DNA of 11,462 nt from an uncultured bacterium (lineage in GTDB: Bacteria > UBP6 > UBA1177 > JAKLFG01). The stretch is from contig CALITV010000148.1 of the NCBI GenBank assembly GCA_938048925.1, positions 1 to 11,462 on the forward strand, read 5' to 3'. Below are positions 560 to 10,921 of the stretch, piece after piece (position 1 is the first letter of the stretch; each line of letters starts with the position of its first letter). Below the pieces are notes generated by a model, which worked only from the letters and a program-made list of their open reading frames with translations, ran no database searches and was not told where the DNA came from. Both the position numbers and the translations under genes were made by a program.

Positions 560-2698
560 ATGACGGCGATGACTTCGCAGGCGAACAAACGCGTGGCCAT
601 CTCGTGGCGTCAGGCGATCGGCCTCATCGTTCCTTATATCAAGAATCGTCTGATGGAGCAGGTGCGGTCTGTATGGCTCATCGTGCTCTACCTGCTCCTT
701 TTCCAAGTGTTGGTGCTCGGCATCCCTATCGTTGACGGTGCCGTTATCACCTTCGGGATGGCGATGGTCATCACAGGCCTCGCCTTTTTCATGGAAGGGC
801 TTCTCCTCGGTCTCATGCCGCTCGGCGAACTCATCGGCCTTAAATTGCCCCAGCGAGTGGGACTGGCGGTCATCCTCGTGTTCGCCTTCACTCTCGGTTT
901 CGGGGTGACGCTCGCCGAACCGGCGATCGGTGCGCTCAAGATACTGGGAAGTTCGGTCAAGGCGTGGGATGCGCCTTTGCTCTTCATACTCCTCAATCGT
1001 TACGCCCACTACCTCGTATTCGCCGTCGGCGTCGGGGTCGGTTGCGCAGTCGTCTTCGGTATGCTTCGTTTTCTCTACAACTGGTCGCTCAAACCGTTTC
1101 TCTATGTTCTCGTGCCGCTGCTCACCCTCATTTCGATTGCCGCGTCGTTCAACCCGAATCTTCTGTATCTTACCGGTCTCGCGTGGGACTGTGGTGCAGT
1201 GACGACCGGTCCCGTGACGGTTCCGCTCGTGCTTGCTCTCGGCATCGGCATCACTCGCATCGTCGGCGGCGCCGATTCGGGAGTCTCGGGATTCGGCGTC
1301 GTAACGCTTGCTTCTCTCTTTCCCATCTTTACCGTACTCATCCTTGGCGTAGTCTTGCTGCCGCGGGTACCTTCCCCTTTGCCGGAAAAAGAGTTTTTGA
1401 GCGCCGAGCATCGTGACGAAACGAGAGTTTTGTTCGATAACGAAGAAGCGCTCGTGCGGTATGCCTTCATGCACGGAGACGAACCGGGGGTCACCGCCTA
1501 TTTCGGCGGCATTCCGGCGCGCCGCGCTTTTGTCGCAGAGATGGCCGCCGATGGTTCGGCCCGCTCGCGTATTTTCGGAGAGGATGAGCCTACATTCATG
1601 AGGTGGGTGGCTCGCTACGGGTCGGTCGAGGAGAAAATAACGCTGTTCGGGTCGGTCAATGGGGCTCGGGAGTATCTCGTCACCCCTTCTTCTTCCGGCG
1701 GTTTGGCGGCGGCGGCGCTTTTCTCGCGGAATTTCCGCGCATCCGCGCAGGCCATTATTCCTCTGACGCTGTTCATGTTGCTCGTGCTCTTTCTTGTCCT
1801 CCGCGAGCGGCTTCCTCGTGCCGACGAGACGGTGTTCGGCATCGCGGTCGCGTTCATCGGAATGGGCCTCTTCAATGTCGGCATGGAGACAGGTCTTTCG
1901 AAAATCGGTGATCAAGTCGGGAGCAAAGTGCCCGCCTCGTTCACCGCGTTGCCGCTCGAGGAAAAACGGGAAACCATCAAGAATTTCTCTCCGAGTGTCG
2001 TCTCCGAGGCGATCTCCCTCAACGGCGGCACGGAACGCTTCTTTTTTCGGCGCACCGATCGGGGGACAGAGGCGATCCCGTACCATGAAGAGAATTATGA
2101 CGAAATGACCGCCACCTATCTCCATGTGCCGAGGGTGGGGCCTTTGTTCGGATCCGAGCGAGGTATCGTCGGCATCATCGTCGTCCTCCTTTTTGCCTTT
2201 TTCATGGGATACGGCGCGACGCTTGCGGAGCCGGCGCTCAACGCGCTCGGTATCAAAGTGGAGGAACTCACCGTCGGTACCTTCAAAAAATCGTTTCTCA
2301 TGCAGGCGGTGGCGGTGGGTGTCGGTATCGGCATTGCATTCGGCGTCGCAAAGATTATCTGGGACATCCCCCTTATCTGGCTCCTTGTGCCGCCGTATCT
2401 TTTGTTGATGTTCGTTTCGAAGATATCAAGCGAGGAATATGTCAATATAGGATGGGACAGCGCCGGCGTGACTACTGGTCCGGTGACTGTGCCGCTTGTC
2501 CTCGCGATGGGACTGGGGATAGGAGCGCAGGTCGGCGTGGTCGAGGGGTTCGGCATCCTCGCGATGGCGTCGGTCTATCCGATACTGTCGGTTCTTCTGA
2601 CCGGCTTGTACGCCGCCCGCAAGCGCTTACCGGCCGAGGAGGAATCGGATGGGGAAACCATGTTCGAACAGGGGAAAGGGGAAGGACCGACGCCATGA
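560..2698 (+). CDS. DUF1538-family membrane protein with internal duplication
   Basis: A 712-residue polytopic inner-membrane protein, recognised as DUF1538 from its repeated signatures; I know of no proven function. Two homologous halves (about residues 12-269 and 388-685) each contain a GxGxTLAEPA motif (residues 113-122 and 550-559) and a WD...VTTGPVTVPLVLA motif (209-225 and 632-648). Acidic residues in hydrophobic context recur in both halves: E79/E443, E120/E557 and D210/D633. A charged, soluble-looking segment (about 270-387) joins the halves. Half 2 also has a ~75-residue hydrophilic insert (about 455-530) that half 1 lacks. The duplicated fold and paired acids suggest a transporter or channel; that is inference. 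The start is uncertain: GTG 545 would give 717 residues, but it lies about 6 bases after the predicted transcript start; ATG 560 has a weak GGGA 7 bases upstream, and ATG 569 is also possible. The stop overlaps the start of the next gene (ATGA), implying translational coupling. Confidence 0.8.
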   Translation: MTAMTSQANKRVAISWRQAIGLIVPYIKNRLMEQVRSVWLIVLYLLLFQVLVLGIPIVDGAVITFGMAMVITGLAFFMEGLLLGLMPLGELIGLKLPQRVGLAVILVFAFTLGFGVTLAEPAIGALKILGSSVKAWDAPLLFILLNRYAHYLVFAVGVGVGCAVVFGMLRFLYNWSLKPFLYVLVPLLTLISIAASFNPNLLYLTGLAWDCGAVTTGPVTVPLVLALGIGITRIVGGADSGVSGFGVVTLASLFPIFTVLILGVVLLPRVPSPLPEKEFLSAEHRDETRVLFDNEEALVRYAFMHGDEPGVTAYFGGIPARRAFVAEMAADGSARSRIFGEDEPTFMRWVARYGSVEEKITLFGSVNGAREYLVTPSSSGGLAAAALFSRNFRASAQAIIPLTLFMLLVLFLVLRERLPRADETVFGIAVAFIGMGLFNVGMETGLSKIGDQVGSKVPASFTALPLEEKRETIKNFSPSVVSEAISLNGGTERFFFRRTDRGTEAIPYHEENYDEMTATYLHVPRVGPLFGSERGIVGIIVVLLFAFFMGYGATLAEPALNALGIKVEELTVGTFKKSFLMQAVAVGVGIGIAFGVAKIIWDIPLIWLLVPPYLLLMFVSKISSEEYVNIGWDSAGVTTGPVTVPLVLAMGLGIGAQVGVVEGFGILAMASVYPILSVLLTGLYAARKRLPAEEESDGETMFEQGKGEGPTP

Positions 2699-3840
2699 AT
2701 CTCGTAGAAACTCCGGCCGTCAGAATAACCTGTGAGGTATACCGCGAGATATCGCCTTCCATCGCGGCGGCACTTGCCGCGATGGGCATCTCTCGCCCCT
2801 ATGTGCAATCGGGGCGTTCCATCATGATCGGCGAAGGAAGGGGATTGTTCTTCGCGCGTGGGACGAGACTCGTCGAGGATCGCATTGATATCTATCGGTT
2901 TGCGGTGGCGCCGGAACACGAGACGGTGGTCATGACCGGCCTCGTTCAGGCAGGTATGCTCAATCAGGAAGGACGCGGTTCAGTGTACAGCGAAAATGTC
3001 AAATTTCTGCACCCACAAGACGCCTGTCCGTTGGAGCGTCCGTCTTTACCCAGGAAAAGCGCTCATGCCACCGCCCTTATGTCTCCTCTCGCCGGCATTT
3101 CGGTCATCGTCCAGCGCGGACAGGGAGACACTATCGCGAGGGCCGCTCTCGATATGGGAATCTGCGTTCCTTCCGTCACCTTCGGCGTCGGTGCCGGTCT
3201 GCGTGATAAGTTGGGACTCATCCGCATTACGATACCCGCCGAGAAGGAGGTGGTGCACATCACCACTGCACGGCATGATCTGCCGGGTGTTCTTTCGCGC
3301 CTCATCGAAGCGGGGAAACTCGACCAGCCGGGAAAAGGGTTCATTTTCACCTACCCGATAGAACGAGGGTTACTTAATACGCGACTCTATGTGGGACGCC
3401 ATTTCTCGGCGGCGAGCCTCGGACAAATCGTCGCTGCAATAGACGAGATAAAGGGATCGACCGCATGGAGACGGAAGTTCACCGGTACCAGTGAACTGCG
3501 CCCACGGGCCAAGAAACGGCAGTATCTGCGAGGACTCGTTGATCTGAGCATCCTGTGCGCCGAAGGGATGGCCGCTACCCTCGCCAAATTGGCGATGGAC
3601 GCCGGCGCCGGCGGCGCCACGGTCGGGCGCCTGCGCCGCATAACGGGGGAAGAAGGGATGCACGGCAAAGACTCGCCGGCGCGGGAACAACTTACCATGA
3701 TTCTTCCCGAAGGTGTCGTCGAATCGGTGGTGCGCGCCGTCGCGGCTGCCGGTCTCTTCGAGAAGGAAACTTGCGGAGAGATCATTTCCAGACCGGTCCC
3801 AGAGGCCTATACCTATCTTGCCTCGACGAACGCAAAATAA
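2695..3840 (+). CDS. Protein with three tandem PII-like domains (P-II family regulator)
   Basis: A 381-residue soluble protein with no signal peptide or membrane segment. The clearest part is the second domain (about residues 130-225): a beta strand GISVIVQRGQG, a helix, the short loop FGVGAGLRDKLGL, a strand, then PAEKEVVHI and AGKLDQPGKGFIF. This matches the ferredoxin-like layout and B-loop region of PII (GlnB/GlnK)-like regulators. Domains at about 8-108 (EHETVVMTGLVQAGMLNQEG) and 278-372 (EGVVESVVRAVAAAGLFEKE) repeat the pattern in more diverged form. A conserved-looking linker, IDEIKGSTAWRRKF, separates domains 2 and 3. PII proteins sense 2-oxoglutarate, ATP/ADP or other nucleotides and bind target proteins, often transporters. 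ATG 2695 overlaps the upstream stop and has GAAGGA about 8 bases before it, so a longer frame open from 2452 is rejected. The likely partner is the coupled DUF1538 protein. The ligand is unknown, and the classical uridylylated T-loop is not recognisable. Confidence 0.72.
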   Translation: MNLVETPAVRITCEVYREISPSIAAALAAMGISRPYVQSGRSIMIGEGRGLFFARGTRLVEDRIDIYRFAVAPEHETVVMTGLVQAGMLNQEGRGSVYSENVKFLHPQDACPLERPSLPRKSAHATALMSPLAGISVIVQRGQGDTIARAALDMGICVPSVTFGVGAGLRDKLGLIRITIPAEKEVVHITTARHDLPGVLSRLIEAGKLDQPGKGFIFTYPIERGLLNTRLYVGRHFSAASLGQIVAAIDEIKGSTAWRRKFTGTSELRPRAKKRQYLRGLVDLSILCAEGMAATLAKLAMDAGAGGATVGRLRRITGEEGMHGKDSPAREQLTMILPEGVVESVVRAVAAAGLFEKETCGEIISRPVPEAYTYLASTNAK

Positions 3841-3873: not shown

Positions 3874-3949
3874 TTTTTGTCTCGCGGGTCCCTTGTCGCA
3901 GCGACAAGGGATGGTGCGGGGGTGTTTTATGGTTTTTTGTTTCGAGGGT
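3874..3949 (+). repeat. Pair of 16-base direct repeats in the RRM leader
   Basis: TTTTTGTCTCGCGGGT at 3874-3889 recurs as TTTTTGTTTCGAGGGT at 3934-3949, with 14 of 16 bases identical and copies 60 bases apart. The second copy contains the GAGGG ribosome-binding site of the RRM gene. The first copy leads directly into the hairpin at 3889-3911. Function is unknown; a duplicated protein-binding site or a competing RNA pairing are both possible. Confidence 0.5.
3889..3911 (+). promoter_or_regulatory. Perfect hairpin in the RRM gene leader
   Basis: TCCCTTGTCGC, one A, then its exact reverse complement GCGACAAGGGA. In RNA the innermost bases would open, leaving about a 9-bp stem and a GCAGC loop. 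No T-run follows, so it is not a standard terminator. It lies between the predicted promoter and the ribosome-binding site (GAGGG, 3944-3948), which suggests a role in mRNA stability or translation control. Confidence 0.6.
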
Positions 3950-3955
3950 TTCGTT

Positions 3956-4210
3956 ATGACGACGCAGTTGTATGTCGGTAATATCAATTACCGGCTGACC
4001 GAGGAAGGACTCAAGGCCATGTTTGCGGAATTCGGCGAGGTTGCATCGGCGAAGATCGTGACCGACCGGGAAACCGGACGTTCCAAAGGCTTCGGTTTTG
4101 TCGAGATGGCCGATGCCGAAGCCGCCGATCGCGCTATCCAGAGCCTTAACGACAAGGAAGTGGACGGCCGCCGCATCAAGGTCAATATCGCTCGTCCGAA
4201 GAAGTTCTAA
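3956..4210 (+). CDS. RRM-domain RNA-binding protein
   Basis: An 84-residue single-domain protein that is almost entirely one RNA recognition motif. RNP2 is LYVGNI (residues 5-10) and RNP1 is KGFGFVEM (44-51). The RNA-stacking aromatics Y6, F46 and F48 are all present. The order is beta1 (RNP2), helix 1 TEEGLKAMFAEFG, beta2, beta3 (RNP1), helix 2 EAADRAIQSLN, beta4 IKVNIARP. There is no glycine-rich tail, unlike some cyanobacterial Rbp proteins. Such small bacterial RRM proteins bind single-stranded RNA; roles in cold response or mRNA handling are reported for some, but none can be assigned here. Start ATG 3956 has GAGGG seven bases upstream and begins right at the domain; the in-frame TTG at 3893 lies inside the leader hairpin and is rejected. 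The gene has its own predicted promoter and terminator. Confidence 0.93.
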   Translation: MTTQLYVGNINYRLTEEGLKAMFAEFGEVASAKIVTDRETGRSKGFGFVEMADAEAADRAIQSLNDKEVDGRRIKVNIARPKKF

Positions 4211-4232
4211 GACGATACGCTTCCTCTGCTGC

Positions 4233-4260
4233 AAGGCCGGGCATGCCCGGCCTTTTTTTT
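4233..4260 (+). terminator. Strong intrinsic terminator after the RRM gene
   Basis: GGCCGGGCATGCCCGGCC (4235-4252) is a perfect 18-base palindrome, followed immediately by eight T (4253-4260). It sits 22 bases past the RRM stop codon. There is no matching A-run on its left side, so it acts on + strand transcription. It isolates the RRM unit from the next gene. Confidence 0.93.
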
Positions 4261-4264
4261 GCCA

Positions 4265-4293
4265 TTGACTCCCGGCTTTCGTGAATATAGGAT
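4265..4293 (+). promoter_or_regulatory. Predicted promoter of the exported-protein gene
   Basis: TTGACT (4265-4270), a 17-base spacer and TAGGAT (4288-4293), beginning five bases after the terminator T-run. Transcription would start near 4300. The in-frame ATG at 4292 lies within the -10 box and could not be translated from this promoter, which supports GTG 4319 as the real start. Confidence 0.5.
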
Positions 4294-4318
4294 GGAAAAT
4301 CTGCTGAAGAGGATCACC

Positions 4319-5728
4319 GTGCCTTCGTCGGCTAAAACCTTTTTCCGAAATCTCTGCTGCCTGACGCTTCTTTTCTGGGGAGTCGCCGAGGCCGCCGCGG
4401 GAGAGGCCCCGCACTGTGCCGCTTCGCTTCTCCTTCCGGCCGGCGTTCACCTTCTTGAAACGCCCGGCTGTTTCTCTCTCGACACGGCTGCGGATCTTTC
4501 TTCCGATCCCGAAGGGCTCCACACCTATCTTGCCCGTTTTCCCGATACGGCGGCAGCCGACCAATACCGTTACTGGTATTACCTGCGTACGCGACATTTT
4601 TTGCCGGCGCTCCTTACGCTCGTCAGACTGGTCAACAGCGGCTCCTCTCTGGCGCCTGCCCGCCAGTTTCGCGACGAGTTGGCGTTTGTTGTCCTAAGCG
4701 GCATCAAGAGCGTGCCTCCCGAGATAGATCTCTACGGAAAGGACACTATCCTTGATCACGACATCTCTCATCGTTTCTTTTTCATTCTCGATCAAGTGGC
4801 GGCACTCTACGCGGCCGACAACAGTGATCTGCGGCGTGATGCGTGGCTGCTCTATCGTTCCTTGGCGTTGTTCTTCTCGAGTAGCGGCATCCCGCAGAGC
4901 GCCGACCCTCACACTGATGCGCTCTTCAAATACTTCTATCTGCTTTGGAGGGAAGGAGATCTTCTTTCCTATCTCGACTTCTATACTTTTTTTACCGGCG
5001 GTAGCGGTGACTATCTCCCCTCGGCAGAGATATACAGGAAGCGTTTCGCGCAATCGGTTCCTCTGCCGAAATCTGGTGACCCTCGTGAGGAGAGAGAGAT
5101 GCTCGCCTCCGTTTCGAGGATCATGGCGCGTCTTCTTTTGGAGCGGCTTCCGCTTTCTCCCCGCATCGAGTTCGTCCAAACGGACGACATCCACCCGTGG
5201 TATCGAACGAACCGATTGACTGGCTCCTCTCTCCCCGGCCGAGATCCGCGGTGTCTCGTATTCGACGAGCGCGAGGGACTATTGGCTCCTTACCAAGAAG
5301 ACCTCTTTCAGCCTTTTATCGAAAACAAGGCTCTCGCCCTTATGGAGTGGTGTGATCAGCGTCACCTGCCACCGGTGGTCATTGAAGCAGAGAAGGTCTA
5401 TCTTTCGACAGCCGATCGCTGGTTTTCCGATGCGGCGGTCGCCTATGCGCTTATCATGATGGGATCTTTTTCCTACCGCGAAGCGGCCAATCTGATGAGC
5501 GGCGCGCTTCTTTCGGCCCTTCGTCGCTATCTCGGCGAGGGACGCAAGCGTCCTTTTGGGGAGGTTCTTCTCTACGCATACCATACGGGACGCCTTTCAC
5601 TCTTCCGAGATGCTCTGTTTCTGCACCGTAAATACGAAGAAGATGCTGATTATACTAACGAAAAGAAGAGATCTGCCGTTCGGTTCACAACGCTGTTTTT
5701 TCTGGGCACCCGCGGACGCGAGCCGTAG
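4319..5728 (+). CDS. Exported protein of unknown function
   Basis: I do not recognise this 469-residue protein. It begins with a signal peptide: a short basic start (K6, R10), a hydrophobic stretch LCCLTLLFWGV (12-22) and an AEAAAG cleavage region near 24-28, so export to the periplasm or outer envelope is likely. No lipobox and no later membrane helix are evident. The mature part is rich in aromatic residues and looks mostly helical, with stretches such as DQYRYWYYLRTRHFLPALL that could be solenoid (TPR-like) repeats, though I cannot define a repeat unit. Two early cysteines (C33, C51) could form a disulfide. GTG 4319 is chosen because GAAGAGG (4306-4312) lies six bases upstream and a promoter is predicted at 4265-4293. 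ATG 4292 (478 residues) is the alternative, but it overlaps the predicted -10 box. The gene is a single unit between a terminator and the gyrB promoter. Confidence 0.8.
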   Translation: MPSSAKTFFRNLCCLTLLFWGVAEAAAGEAPHCAASLLLPAGVHLLETPGCFSLDTAADLSSDPEGLHTYLARFPDTAAADQYRYWYYLRTRHFLPALLTLVRLVNSGSSLAPARQFRDELAFVVLSGIKSVPPEIDLYGKDTILDHDISHRFFFILDQVAALYAADNSDLRRDAWLLYRSLALFFSSSGIPQSADPHTDALFKYFYLLWREGDLLSYLDFYTFFTGGSGDYLPSAEIYRKRFAQSVPLPKSGDPREEREMLASVSRIMARLLLERLPLSPRIEFVQTDDIHPWYRTNRLTGSSLPGRDPRCLVFDEREGLLAPYQEDLFQPFIENKALALMEWCDQRHLPPVVIEAEKVYLSTADRWFSDAAVAYALIMMGSFSYREAANLMSGALLSALRRYLGEGRKRPFGEVLLYAYHTGRLSLFRDALFLHRKYEEDADYTNEKKRSAVRFTTLFFLGTRGREP

Positions 5729-5903: not shown

Positions 5904-8384
<2,481 letters not shown>

Positions 8385-8410: not shown

Positions 8411-10921
8411 ATGGTCGAACAGACAAACATCATCACCATCAACGAGACGATAAAACCGGTCAGCATCGAGCAACAGATGAAGAGTGCCTACATAGACTAC
8501 GCGATGAGCGTTATTGTGGGCCGTTCGTTGCCCGATGTGCGCGACGGTCTCAAACCGGTCCACCGCCGCGTTCTCTATGCGATGAAGGAGTTGGGGACCA
8601 CCTTCAATGCCCCCTACAAGAAATCAGCCCGTATCGTCGGCGACGTCATCGGTAAATACCACCCGCACGGCGATCAGGCGGTCTACCAGACGCTCGTCCG
8701 CATGGCGCAGGATTTTTCGATGCGCTATGTTCTGGTGGACGGGCAGGGGAACTTCGGTTCGATAGACGGCGACGAGGCGGCGGCGATGCGTTACACAGAG
8801 GCGCGCATGGCCCGTATCGCCGGAGAAATGCTCGCCGATATCGAGAAGGACACCGTCAACATGGTTGATAACTACGACGGTTCTCTCAAAGAGCCAGAGG
8901 TTCTTCCTACGCGCATACCGCAACTTATCATCAACGGCACCTCCGGCATTGCCGTCGGTATGGCGTCGAACATTCCACCGCACAATTTGGTCGAGGTCGT
9001 CAAGGCGCTCCTCCATCTCGTTGACCATCCGAAGGCGACCTCCGCCGACCTTATGAATTTCGTCAAAGGTCCCGATTTTCCGACCGCCGGCATCATCCTC
9101 GGCCGCGCCGGCATTCGACAGGCTTATGAAACGGGACGCGGCATAGTGAAGATCCGCGCCCGGGCGACGATAGAGGAAGGAGAGCGGGCTAACGATCGTC
9201 CCCGCATCATCGTCACCGAGATGCCTTATCAGGTCAACAAGGCGCAAACCATCATGCAGATAGCCGATCTGGTGAAAGAGAAGAAGATAGAGGGCATACA
9301 TGATATCCGTGACGAGTCCGACCGGCGCGGCATCCGGGTGGTCGTCGAACTCAAGAAGGACGCCATTCCCGATATCGTGCTCAACCAACTCTACAAAATG
9401 ACGAATCTCCAGACGAGTTTCGGCATCAATATGCTCGCCATTTGCAACGGTGTGCCGCGGACGCTCGACCTCTGTTCGATGCTCAACTATTTTCTCATGC
9501 ACCGTCGAGAGGTGGTGACGCGCCGGACCCGCTTCGAGCTTGCCGAGGCCGAGAAACGCGCTCACATCCTCGAGGGGCTCAAGAAGGCGATAGATGTCAT
9601 CGACAAGGTCATCGCCATTATTCGCAAGTCACCTTCGACCGACGAGGCGCGCGACGCGCTGGTGGCGAAATTCGCTTTCTCGAAGGTGCAAGCGGCCGCC
9701 ATCCTCGATATGAAACTGGCACGGCTCACCGGACTCGAGCGGGACAAGATAGAGAGCGAACTTGCCGACCTGCTCAAGAAGATCGCGTGGTACAACGACA
9801 TCTTGGCGCACGAGAAAACGCTCCTTTCGGTCATCAAGAACGAACTCAGGGAGATTATGGAGCGTTACGGCGACGAGCGGAGGACCGAGATCGTGGACGA
9901 GGCGGGCGATATAGACATCGAAGATCTCATCCCCGATGAAGAAATGGTGGTTACCCTCACTACCGAGAACTACATCAAGCGGACGCCGCTCACGCAGTAC
10001 CGTAAACAGAAACGGGGGGGGAAAGGCATCAATGCGGTAAATCCAAAAGAGAACGACTATGTCAAAGATATCTTCATTGCCAGCAACCATACGCAACTCA
10101 TGATCTTCACAAGTTACGGCAAGGTGTACTGGCTCAAGGTATATCAACTGCCCGAAGCGGGGCGAGGAAGCCGCGGAAAACCGATCATCAATCTCGTGCA
10201 AGTCGAAAAGGACGAGAGGGTCATGGAGATACTGCCAATCCGCGAATTTGTGTCCGATCACTTCGTTTTCATGGCAACGAAACGCGGAACCGTCAAAAAA
10301 ACCGATCTCATGGAGTTCGCTATTCAGCGTGCGAACGGCAAAAAGGCGATTACTATGGCCGAGGGTGACGAGCTCATCGGGGTGGCGATAACCAATGGCA
10401 GTAACGAGATTATCCTCGCGTCGCGTAACGGTCTTTCCATCCGTTTCCCCGAGAAGCAGGTGCGTCCGATGGGACGGGCGGCGGCTGGAGTCCGCGGCAT
10501 GCTCCTCGAGGAGGGTGATTCGGTGGTGACGATGGATGTGGTTGATCCGACCAAGACGCTTCTTTCGGTCACCGACCGCGGCATCGGCAAACGGACGCCG
10601 ATCGAAGACTATCGGGTGCAATCGCGCGGCGGCAAGGGAATCATCACCATCAAGACATCCGAGGAGAACGGTTTCGTTATCGGTGTCCTGAAGGTGGGCG
10701 ACAGCGACGAGGTGATGCTCATCACGACGAGCGGACAGGCGATACGCATACCGGTCTCCGGGATCAGCGTCATCGGTCGGAACACCAAAGGGGTGCGCCT
10801 GTTCCGCGTCGCCGAAGGGGAGCGTGTGGTAGGCGTCACCAAGATCGTCGAGCCTCAAGACAACGGACGACCTGACGAAGAGGACGAGGGGCCGGAAGGA
10901 GACGAAGAGCCAACGGCGTAA
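8411..10921 (+). CDS. gyrA: DNA gyrase subunit A
   Basis: An 836-residue DNA-cleaving and wrapping subunit of DNA gyrase. The N-terminal breakage-reunion domain (to about residue 515) contains the catalytic tyrosine Y128 in AMRYTEARM, which forms the phosphotyrosine link to DNA, and IIPQ-type neighbours such as [15 protein letters not shown]. The C-terminal pinwheel domain has a GyrA box at 533-539, QKRGGKG, needed for DNA wrapping and differing from the QRRGGKG form by one conservative change. A second box-like QSRGGKG occurs two or three blades later. The last ~23 residues are strongly acidic, like the regulatory tail of E. coli GyrA. In the quinolone-determining region HGDQAVYQT, both key positions (E. 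coli S83 and D87) are Gln (Q89, Q93). ATG 8411 has AGGAG eight bases upstream. I see no convincing terminator after the stop, only a T-rich stretch from about 10938. Confidence 0.99.

Follow-up and report, generated by a model that had tools for sequence, protein, structure and literature searches.

The window analysed here is the whole of contig CALITV010000148.1 (G000:C148 in our numbering; 11,462 bases), one entire contig of an uncultured bacterium whose source genome comprises 1.47 Mb in 293 contigs and is 65% complete. Our subject is a pair of overlapping genes on its forward strand: open reading frame (ORF) 1 encodes a double DUF1538 membrane protein, and ORF2 encodes a protein with three PII folds in one chain. 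DUF1538 genes nearly always stood beside a PII-type gene in the loci that we examined, and in some bacteria the two are fused into a single protein. The two genes and their junction are as follows.

560..2698, + strand: ORF1, UmpA-UmpB-type double DUF1538 membrane protein, 712 amino acids (PF07556 and NCBIfam UmpA/UmpB matches)
2695..2698, + strand: ATGA, the start codon of ORF2 lying over the stop codon of ORF1 (sequence)
2695..3840, + strand: ORF2, triple PII-fold protein, 381 amino acids (AlphaFold2 model, Foldseek, profile match to solved PII sequences)

ORF1 runs from an ATG at 560 (a GTG at 545 is an alternative start) to a TGA at 2698, and ORF2 from an ATG at 2695 to a TAA at 3840. The ATGA overlap, reported in a first-pass annotation made from the sequence alone, was confirmed at 2695-2698. 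ORF1 belongs to the DUF1538 family (PF07556; E 9.2e-106, 352.3 bits against a cut-off of 22.6), and the match falls into two stretches; the annotation had described a duplicated membrane protein. PF07556 was the only Pfam family found in ORF1; the ammonium transporter family PF00909 matched neither ORF1 nor any contig of the source genome, at its 65% completeness. With the NCBIfam models ORF1 scored 202.5 bits for UmpA and 164.5 bits for UmpB, missing both equivalog cut-offs (490 for NF041627 and 500 for NF041628), and it is therefore filed as DUF1538 and not as UmpA or UmpB. The UmpA cut-off of 490 was reached in none of the 386 and 197 genomes searched. ORF1 can be divided into three parts.

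680..1354, + strand: DUF1538 domain 1, the UmpA-like half, with E120 and D210 invariant in 12 diverse pairs (PF07556 placement, invariant columns)
1385..1681, + strand: insert between the halves, mostly helical, residues 276-374 (AlphaFold2 secondary structure)
1766..2608, + strand: DUF1538 domain 2, the UmpB-like half, with E557 and D633 invariant in 12 diverse pairs (PF07556 placement, invariant columns)

A further insert, which contains beta structure in the model, lies inside the second DUF1538 domain at about residues 471-522. The four acidic residues that are invariant across the 12 diverse pairs, two in each half of ORF1, may take part in binding the ion or the proton.

ORF2 itself gave no Pfam or NCBIfam match at E<=1, so that its reading as a PII protein required other evidence. 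The AlphaFold2 model, built from a 65-row alignment (mean predicted local distance difference test score, pLDDT, 87.2; predicted template modelling score 0.87), consists of three beta-alpha-beta-beta-alpha-beta domains at about residues 3-107, 132-222 and 281-368, which is the PII fold. A Foldseek search with this model returned many PII chains at a probability of 1.00 with target template modelling (TM) scores of 0.53-0.71; the top three rows by E-value were sulfur oxygenase reductases, with TM scores of 0.20-0.22 only. The profile of the ORF2 family matched solved PII sequences, among them Corynebacterium glutamicum GlnK (E 8.7e-5), and hhalign related the domains to one another (98.1% for domains 1 and 2, 94.4% for 2 and 3, 37.7% for 1 and 3). 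Thus, the triple PII-like character that the annotation had given to the second gene is correct. With the P-II family PF00543 the outcome was mixed: 22 of the 65 ORF2-family members matched it at E<=0.1, two of three other triple proteins (L137 and L091) scored above the P-II cut-off and one (L105) below it, five of six small PII neighbours scored above it, and 6 of 120 proteins in another listing carried PF00543. The profile searches that the annotation proposed succeeded directly for ORF1, and for ORF2 only through its relatives. The parts of ORF2 are listed below.

2701..3015, + strand: PII-like domain 1, residues 3-107; its beta2-beta3 hairpin is longer than those of domains 2 and 3 (AlphaFold2, profile, alignment)
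3088..3360, + strand: PII-like domain 2, residues 132-222, corresponding to the first of the small PII genes where relatives have two (AlphaFold2, domain profiles)
3184..3246, + strand: shortened T-loop region of domain 2, residues 164-184 (conservation, pLDDT)
3418..3477, + strand: conserved helical linker joining domains 2 and 3, residues 242-261 (alignment, AlphaFold2)
3535..3798, + strand: PII-like domain 3, residues 281-368, with an SPARE motif (alignment, AlphaFold2)

Conservation in ORF2 peaks in the loop region of domain 2: 9 of the protein's 27 invariant columns fall within residues 164-184 (hypergeometric probability 1.9e-6); the best 21-residue conservation window starts at 166, and those starting at 164 and 165 are also among the top five. 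Within this loop the pLDDT falls to 55 in the block 171-180. A loop that is conserved and yet modelled at low confidence fits a flexible target-binding loop, although low confidence can have other causes. Residues D250, W258 and R259 of the linker are invariant among the 65 relatives.

We then asked how often DUF1538 and PII genes stand together. Of the 25 genomes from the order of the source organism, its own included, 22 carried DUF1538 and a triple PII gene next to each other and three carried neither (22/22). The wider set of 98 loci comprised 18 stretches from DUF1538 genomes, 14 of them outside the order and four from its members G018 and G022, and a further 80 found by scanning 84,980 species with one genome per species. 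These 80 are the best of 579 matches; they resemble the first query sequence and hence lean to fused-type transporters, the split types being covered by separate sets of nine and 29 loci. A PII-like gene followed DUF1538 immediately, on the same strand and no more than 600 bases away, in 89 of the 90 testable loci among the 98; of the eight remaining loci, seven run into a contig end (L073, L075, L128, L130, L133, L134 and L151) and one into a scaffold gap (L153). Some loci share a genome (G018, G022, G056 and G090): L072 to L075 lie in G018 and G022, both already within the 22/22, and L158 and L161 repeat L069 and L061. The only testable locus of the 98 lacking a PII neighbour was L070 (4271-5794), in genome G063, which is 99% complete and gave no PF00543 match. 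The nine-locus set, which includes split umpA-umpB-PII loci followed by CBS-like genes, showed PII in eight of nine, with L169 stopping at a contig end. In it, L173 (1501-2536) holds a single DUF1538 protein of 228 amino acids with one PII gene and is possibly the simplest form of the module. An umpAB-rich order, where UmpA was matched in 58 of 197 genomes and in none over the cut-off, contributed 29 loci, of which all 28 testable ones had PII (L212 being a contig end). The annotation's mention of PII-family genes near DUF1538 genes in other genomes was borne out by these counts (22/22, 89/90 and 28/28).

The arrangement of the PII partner varied. Among 88 loci scored by script, PII was encoded in two ORFs in 57, in one ORF of at least 340 amino acids in 24 and in one shorter ORF in seven, of which L059 and L071 are of double length; L072 adds a triple PII beyond these 88. 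ATGA, GTGA or TTGA was found at the DUF1538 stop in 45 of the 88 junctions, a count of the pattern and not proof of start use. As a control, we compared the ammonium transporter gene amtB in 30 genomes of the umpAB-rich order, leaving out two contig-edge fragments of G403. A P-II gene lay within 600 bases of 25 of 36 AmtB genes and of all 12 DUF1538 loci, one of these being a fusion; within these genomes AmtB is less tightly linked to PII than DUF1538 is. Chance pairing was rejected on the linkage counts, this control and the fusions described next.

The natural fusions are the strongest evidence that the partners physically work together. In genome G414 a P-II match shares an open frame with both DUF1538 matches; the 642-amino-acid fusion ORF matches PF07556 at E 3.8e-132 and P-II at E 2.2e-7 (31.6 bits, cut-off 25). 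A search with its PII part returned 355 proteins, and 118 of the 120 listed carry both Pfam domains; because the search was restricted to similar total length it selects fusions, and so it proves that they exist in many sequences without giving their frequency. By record names, the listed proteins include Sulfurimonas gotlandica GD1, S. aquatica and an Arcobacter sp. metagenome-assembled genome, and eight aligned ones were 71-83% identical to the 642-amino-acid protein. None of the 120 listed ORF1 relatives carried PF00543, so that fusion belongs to other DUF1538 branches. The fused architecture is already visible in public databases, and the forms of the module range from a free single PII through paired and triple ones to PII covalently fused to the transporter.

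Transporter and PII layouts also sort together. On a tree of 84 transporters, built by a quick method and containing several long branches, the PII layout changes 5 times compared with 26.6 in shuffles (the label "none" includes L151, a contig end), and the main two-gene set of 53 tree rows is uniform in layout. Where two small PII genes are present, the first matched the profile of ORF2 domain 2 best in all 44 loci compared, while the second was nearest to domain 1 in 25 and to domain 2 in 19. The alignments used (A1 and A2) took in 65 of 120 and 61 of 120 listed relatives.

We consider it probable that ORF2 is a dedicated cytosolic regulatory subunit of ORF1, and that ORF1 is a cation/proton antiporter of the UmpAB type. 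ORF1 would be a secondary transporter of the UmpA-UmpB type in a single chain, and in all likelihood a Na+(K+)/H+ antiporter serving pH and salt homeostasis. Through overlapping translation ORF2 would be made in step with it, and its three PII folds per chain may pack together as a pseudo-trimer. The clefts between the PII domains would bind a small signal molecule of the cytosol, for which an adenine nucleotide is the likeliest candidate; its presence may alter the contact that the conserved short loop of domain 2 would make with the transporter on its cytoplasmic side, also in the unfused form, and thereby switch ion exchange on or off. That a single-chain pseudo-trimer caps the antiporter in this way, with an adenine nucleotide (ATP/ADP/AMP, cAMP or c-di-AMP) as the signal that it detects, is a tentative proposal, which we would not yet call probable. 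The substrate is narrowed by the literature: the one DUF1538 pair tested, UmpAB of Halomonas, is a Na+(Li+,K+)/H+ antiporter according to the available text of PMC5484666, and DUF1538 is among the listed predictors of growth pH in that of PMC13255231. The annotation's view of a membrane transporter with a sensing partner is thus partly supported. It was largely right about the coupling, since linkage and fusions indicate one functional unit; the gating it proposed is our inference too, and the substrate is no longer wholly obscure. Its comparison with AmtB-GlnK stands in principle and not as a copy, given the short T-loop of domain 2 and the missing B-loop lysine. Of the two findings that it had named as telling against it, neither was made: a PII fold is present, and DUF1538 nearly always has a PII neighbour in the loci examined.

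The genes around the module give hints about the ligand. Apart from PII, no gene cluster exceeded 11 of the compared loci; the single-linkage BLAST clusters are partly mixed, and our counts of cyclases, channels and exchangers include Pfam-checked members only. The commonest Pfam family among 83 operon-adjacent genes was cNMP_binding (5/83). By similarity such genes occur in L076, L080, L085 and L140, from related Alphaproteobacteria, and in L078, with Pfam confirmation in L080 and L078; as most come from related organisms, they are a hint only. Pfam identified CHASE2-cyclase genes near DUF1538-PII in L080, L085, L140 and L087. In L080 (2645-5939), L085 (3082-5895) and L140 (3112-5913) a CHASE2-cyclase gene and a cNMP-binding gene closely precede DUF1538-PII-PII in the same orientation, the cyclase being assigned by Pfam in all three and the cNMP-binding gene by Pfam in L080 and by similarity elsewhere. 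In L078 (3542-5998) the gene immediately before DUF1538 encodes a Na+/H+ exchanger that carries a cNMP-binding domain at its C-terminus. A CBS gene was Pfam-checked in L061 only and recognised by resemblance in L069, L157, L159 and L186. The CBS, cyclase and cNMP-binding neighbours together hint at an adenine nucleotide. In ten loci the second PII gene is followed by a protein of 242-260 amino acids (for example L113, 8537-9289) that looks coiled-coil-like by eye; the L113 copy had no Pfam match, and it is a possible extra component of the module.

Several observations weigh against a regulated UmpAB-type antiporter. ORF1 lies so far under both equivalog cut-offs that the same substrate as in Halomonas is not assured, and the DUF1538 model had no clear match to any solved transporter. 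On the regulator side, besides the absence of a profile match to ORF2 itself, domain 2 has a T-loop some 7 residues below the length of that in GlnK, counted by hand on the alignment from G-x-G to the next proline, and so lacks the long T-loop of about 20 residues that marks GlnB and GlnK. The B-loop lysine of GlnK, which has a role in phosphate binding, finds no counterpart: of G-D-G-K, the G-x-G is kept in domains 1 and 2, and the aspartate and lysine are not. The G-x-G at the base of the T-loop is kept in the alignment with GlnK. The shorter loop and the absent lysine suggest to us that the ligand is a different one and may be a nucleotide carrying fewer phosphates. The L070 locus indicates that the antiporter can exist without a PII partner. 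Finally, E. coli KNabc regained growth from a subclone that carried only umpA and umpB (PMC5484666, available text), so the partner was not needed for activity there; a term search of that paper did not find "PII".

The last two points also speak against another view of ORF2, in which it would be a structural or gating-ring subunit that is obligatory and permanently bound, and not an inhibitor that shuttles as GlnK does. The RCK rings of the Trk and Ktr potassium systems offer the comparison, and linkage tighter than that of AmtB with PII in the same genomes, covalent fusion in some bacteria and the joint sorting of transporter and PII layouts would all fit such a ring; we regard it as a real possibility, though a somewhat doubtful one. 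It seems unlikely that the module carries another substrate, such as bicarbonate, ammonium or an organic acid, with PII signalling the state of carbon or nitrogen supply, on the pattern of SbtA-SbtB or AmtB-GlnK. The PII-controlled transporters listed in a review are indeed those for ammonium, nitrate/nitrite, urea and bicarbonate (PMC10710835, available text), and ORF1 is far from Halomonas UmpA by score. Against this stand the single biochemical result that we found for the family, cation/proton antiport (PMC5484666, available text), and a small number of neighbours in relatives that speak for ion homeostasis (Na+/H+ exchanger and ion channel in one Pfam-supported locus each; Na_H_Exchanger and TrkA_N each in 2 of 83 operon-adjacent genes). 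That the genes are merely co-transcribed, with ORF2 acting on other targets, is very improbable: co-translation alone is no proof of binding, but the linkage spans several phyla and natural fusions exist. Nor is ORF2 a spare GlnB, an idea rejected because four relatives from the order (G001, G003, G005 and G008, 99, 91, 99 and 99% complete) had no PF00543 match, a comparison that covers canonical PII only, as the profile also misses triple PII.

If a dedicated PII subunit does control a cation/proton antiporter, the reach of PII control would in many phyla go beyond the uptake of nitrogen and carbon and take in pH and Na+/K+ homeostasis, and a PII protein with its folds joined in one chain would no longer need a trimeric transporter. 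Ion and pH homeostasis would join the PII targets provided that the antiport of one DUF1538 pair holds across the family. A domain of unknown function for which we found one biochemical paper would become a system with a concrete test, the effect of ligand on antiport, and the natural fusions open the complex to structural work without guessing the partner.

The rest of the window is described briefly. At positions 1-477 lies the 3' portion of a gene that shows kinship with aspartate kinase in the C-terminal ACT region; the reading frame is still open where the contig begins, so the gene is probably truncated by the contig edge. A perfect inverted repeat at 3890-3910, CCCTTGTC-GCAGC-GACAAGGG, lies between ORF2 and the gene of an RNA-binding protein, with no T run after it by eye. 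That gene, at 3953-4254, encodes a small RRM protein (NF058537, above cut-off), and a terminator-like hairpin with a T run follows at 4233-4254. A 489-amino-acid ORF at 4259-5728 had no Pfam or NCBIfam match and stands upstream of ORFs at 5916-8384 and 8411-10921, which we take to be gyrB-like and gyrA-like.

We found no paper joining PII with DUF1538 or UmpAB, most subscription papers lying outside the search, so that such a report may exist elsewhere; in the available text of PMC7221264, "PII" beside DUF1538/UmpAB is only part of a peptide motif. No paper was found joining Sulfurimonas with DUF1538, and no tandem-PII system of this kind was apparent from titles. Among known systems, UmpAB of Halomonas zhaodongensis is closest to ORF1, sharing the PF07556 family, UmpA-like and UmpB-like halves and conserved acidic residues in each; ORF1 differs in being one 712-amino-acid chain with two inserts that scores under both equivalog cut-offs, and in having a PII partner, of which a term search of the published work found no mention. 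DarA/PstA, a c-di-AMP receptor, is linked to potassium, and we know of no DUF1538 partner for it; according to the available literature it has a PII-like fold outside nitrogen control, as ORF2 would, and it is single-domain. AmtB-GlnK likewise pairs neighbouring genes for a transporter and a PII-fold putative regulator, but AmtB belongs to a family unrelated to ORF1, GlnK is a homotrimer whereas ORF2 has three folds per chain with a shortened T-loop in domain 2, and DUF1538-PII linkage is the tighter in the 30 genomes compared. SbtA-SbtB provides a plausible model for adenine-nucleotide control: SbtB is PII-like but works outside nitrogen metabolism, binding AMP and cAMP and controlling a secondary transporter (PMC10117731, available text), although that transporter is a different one and SbtB is homotrimeric.

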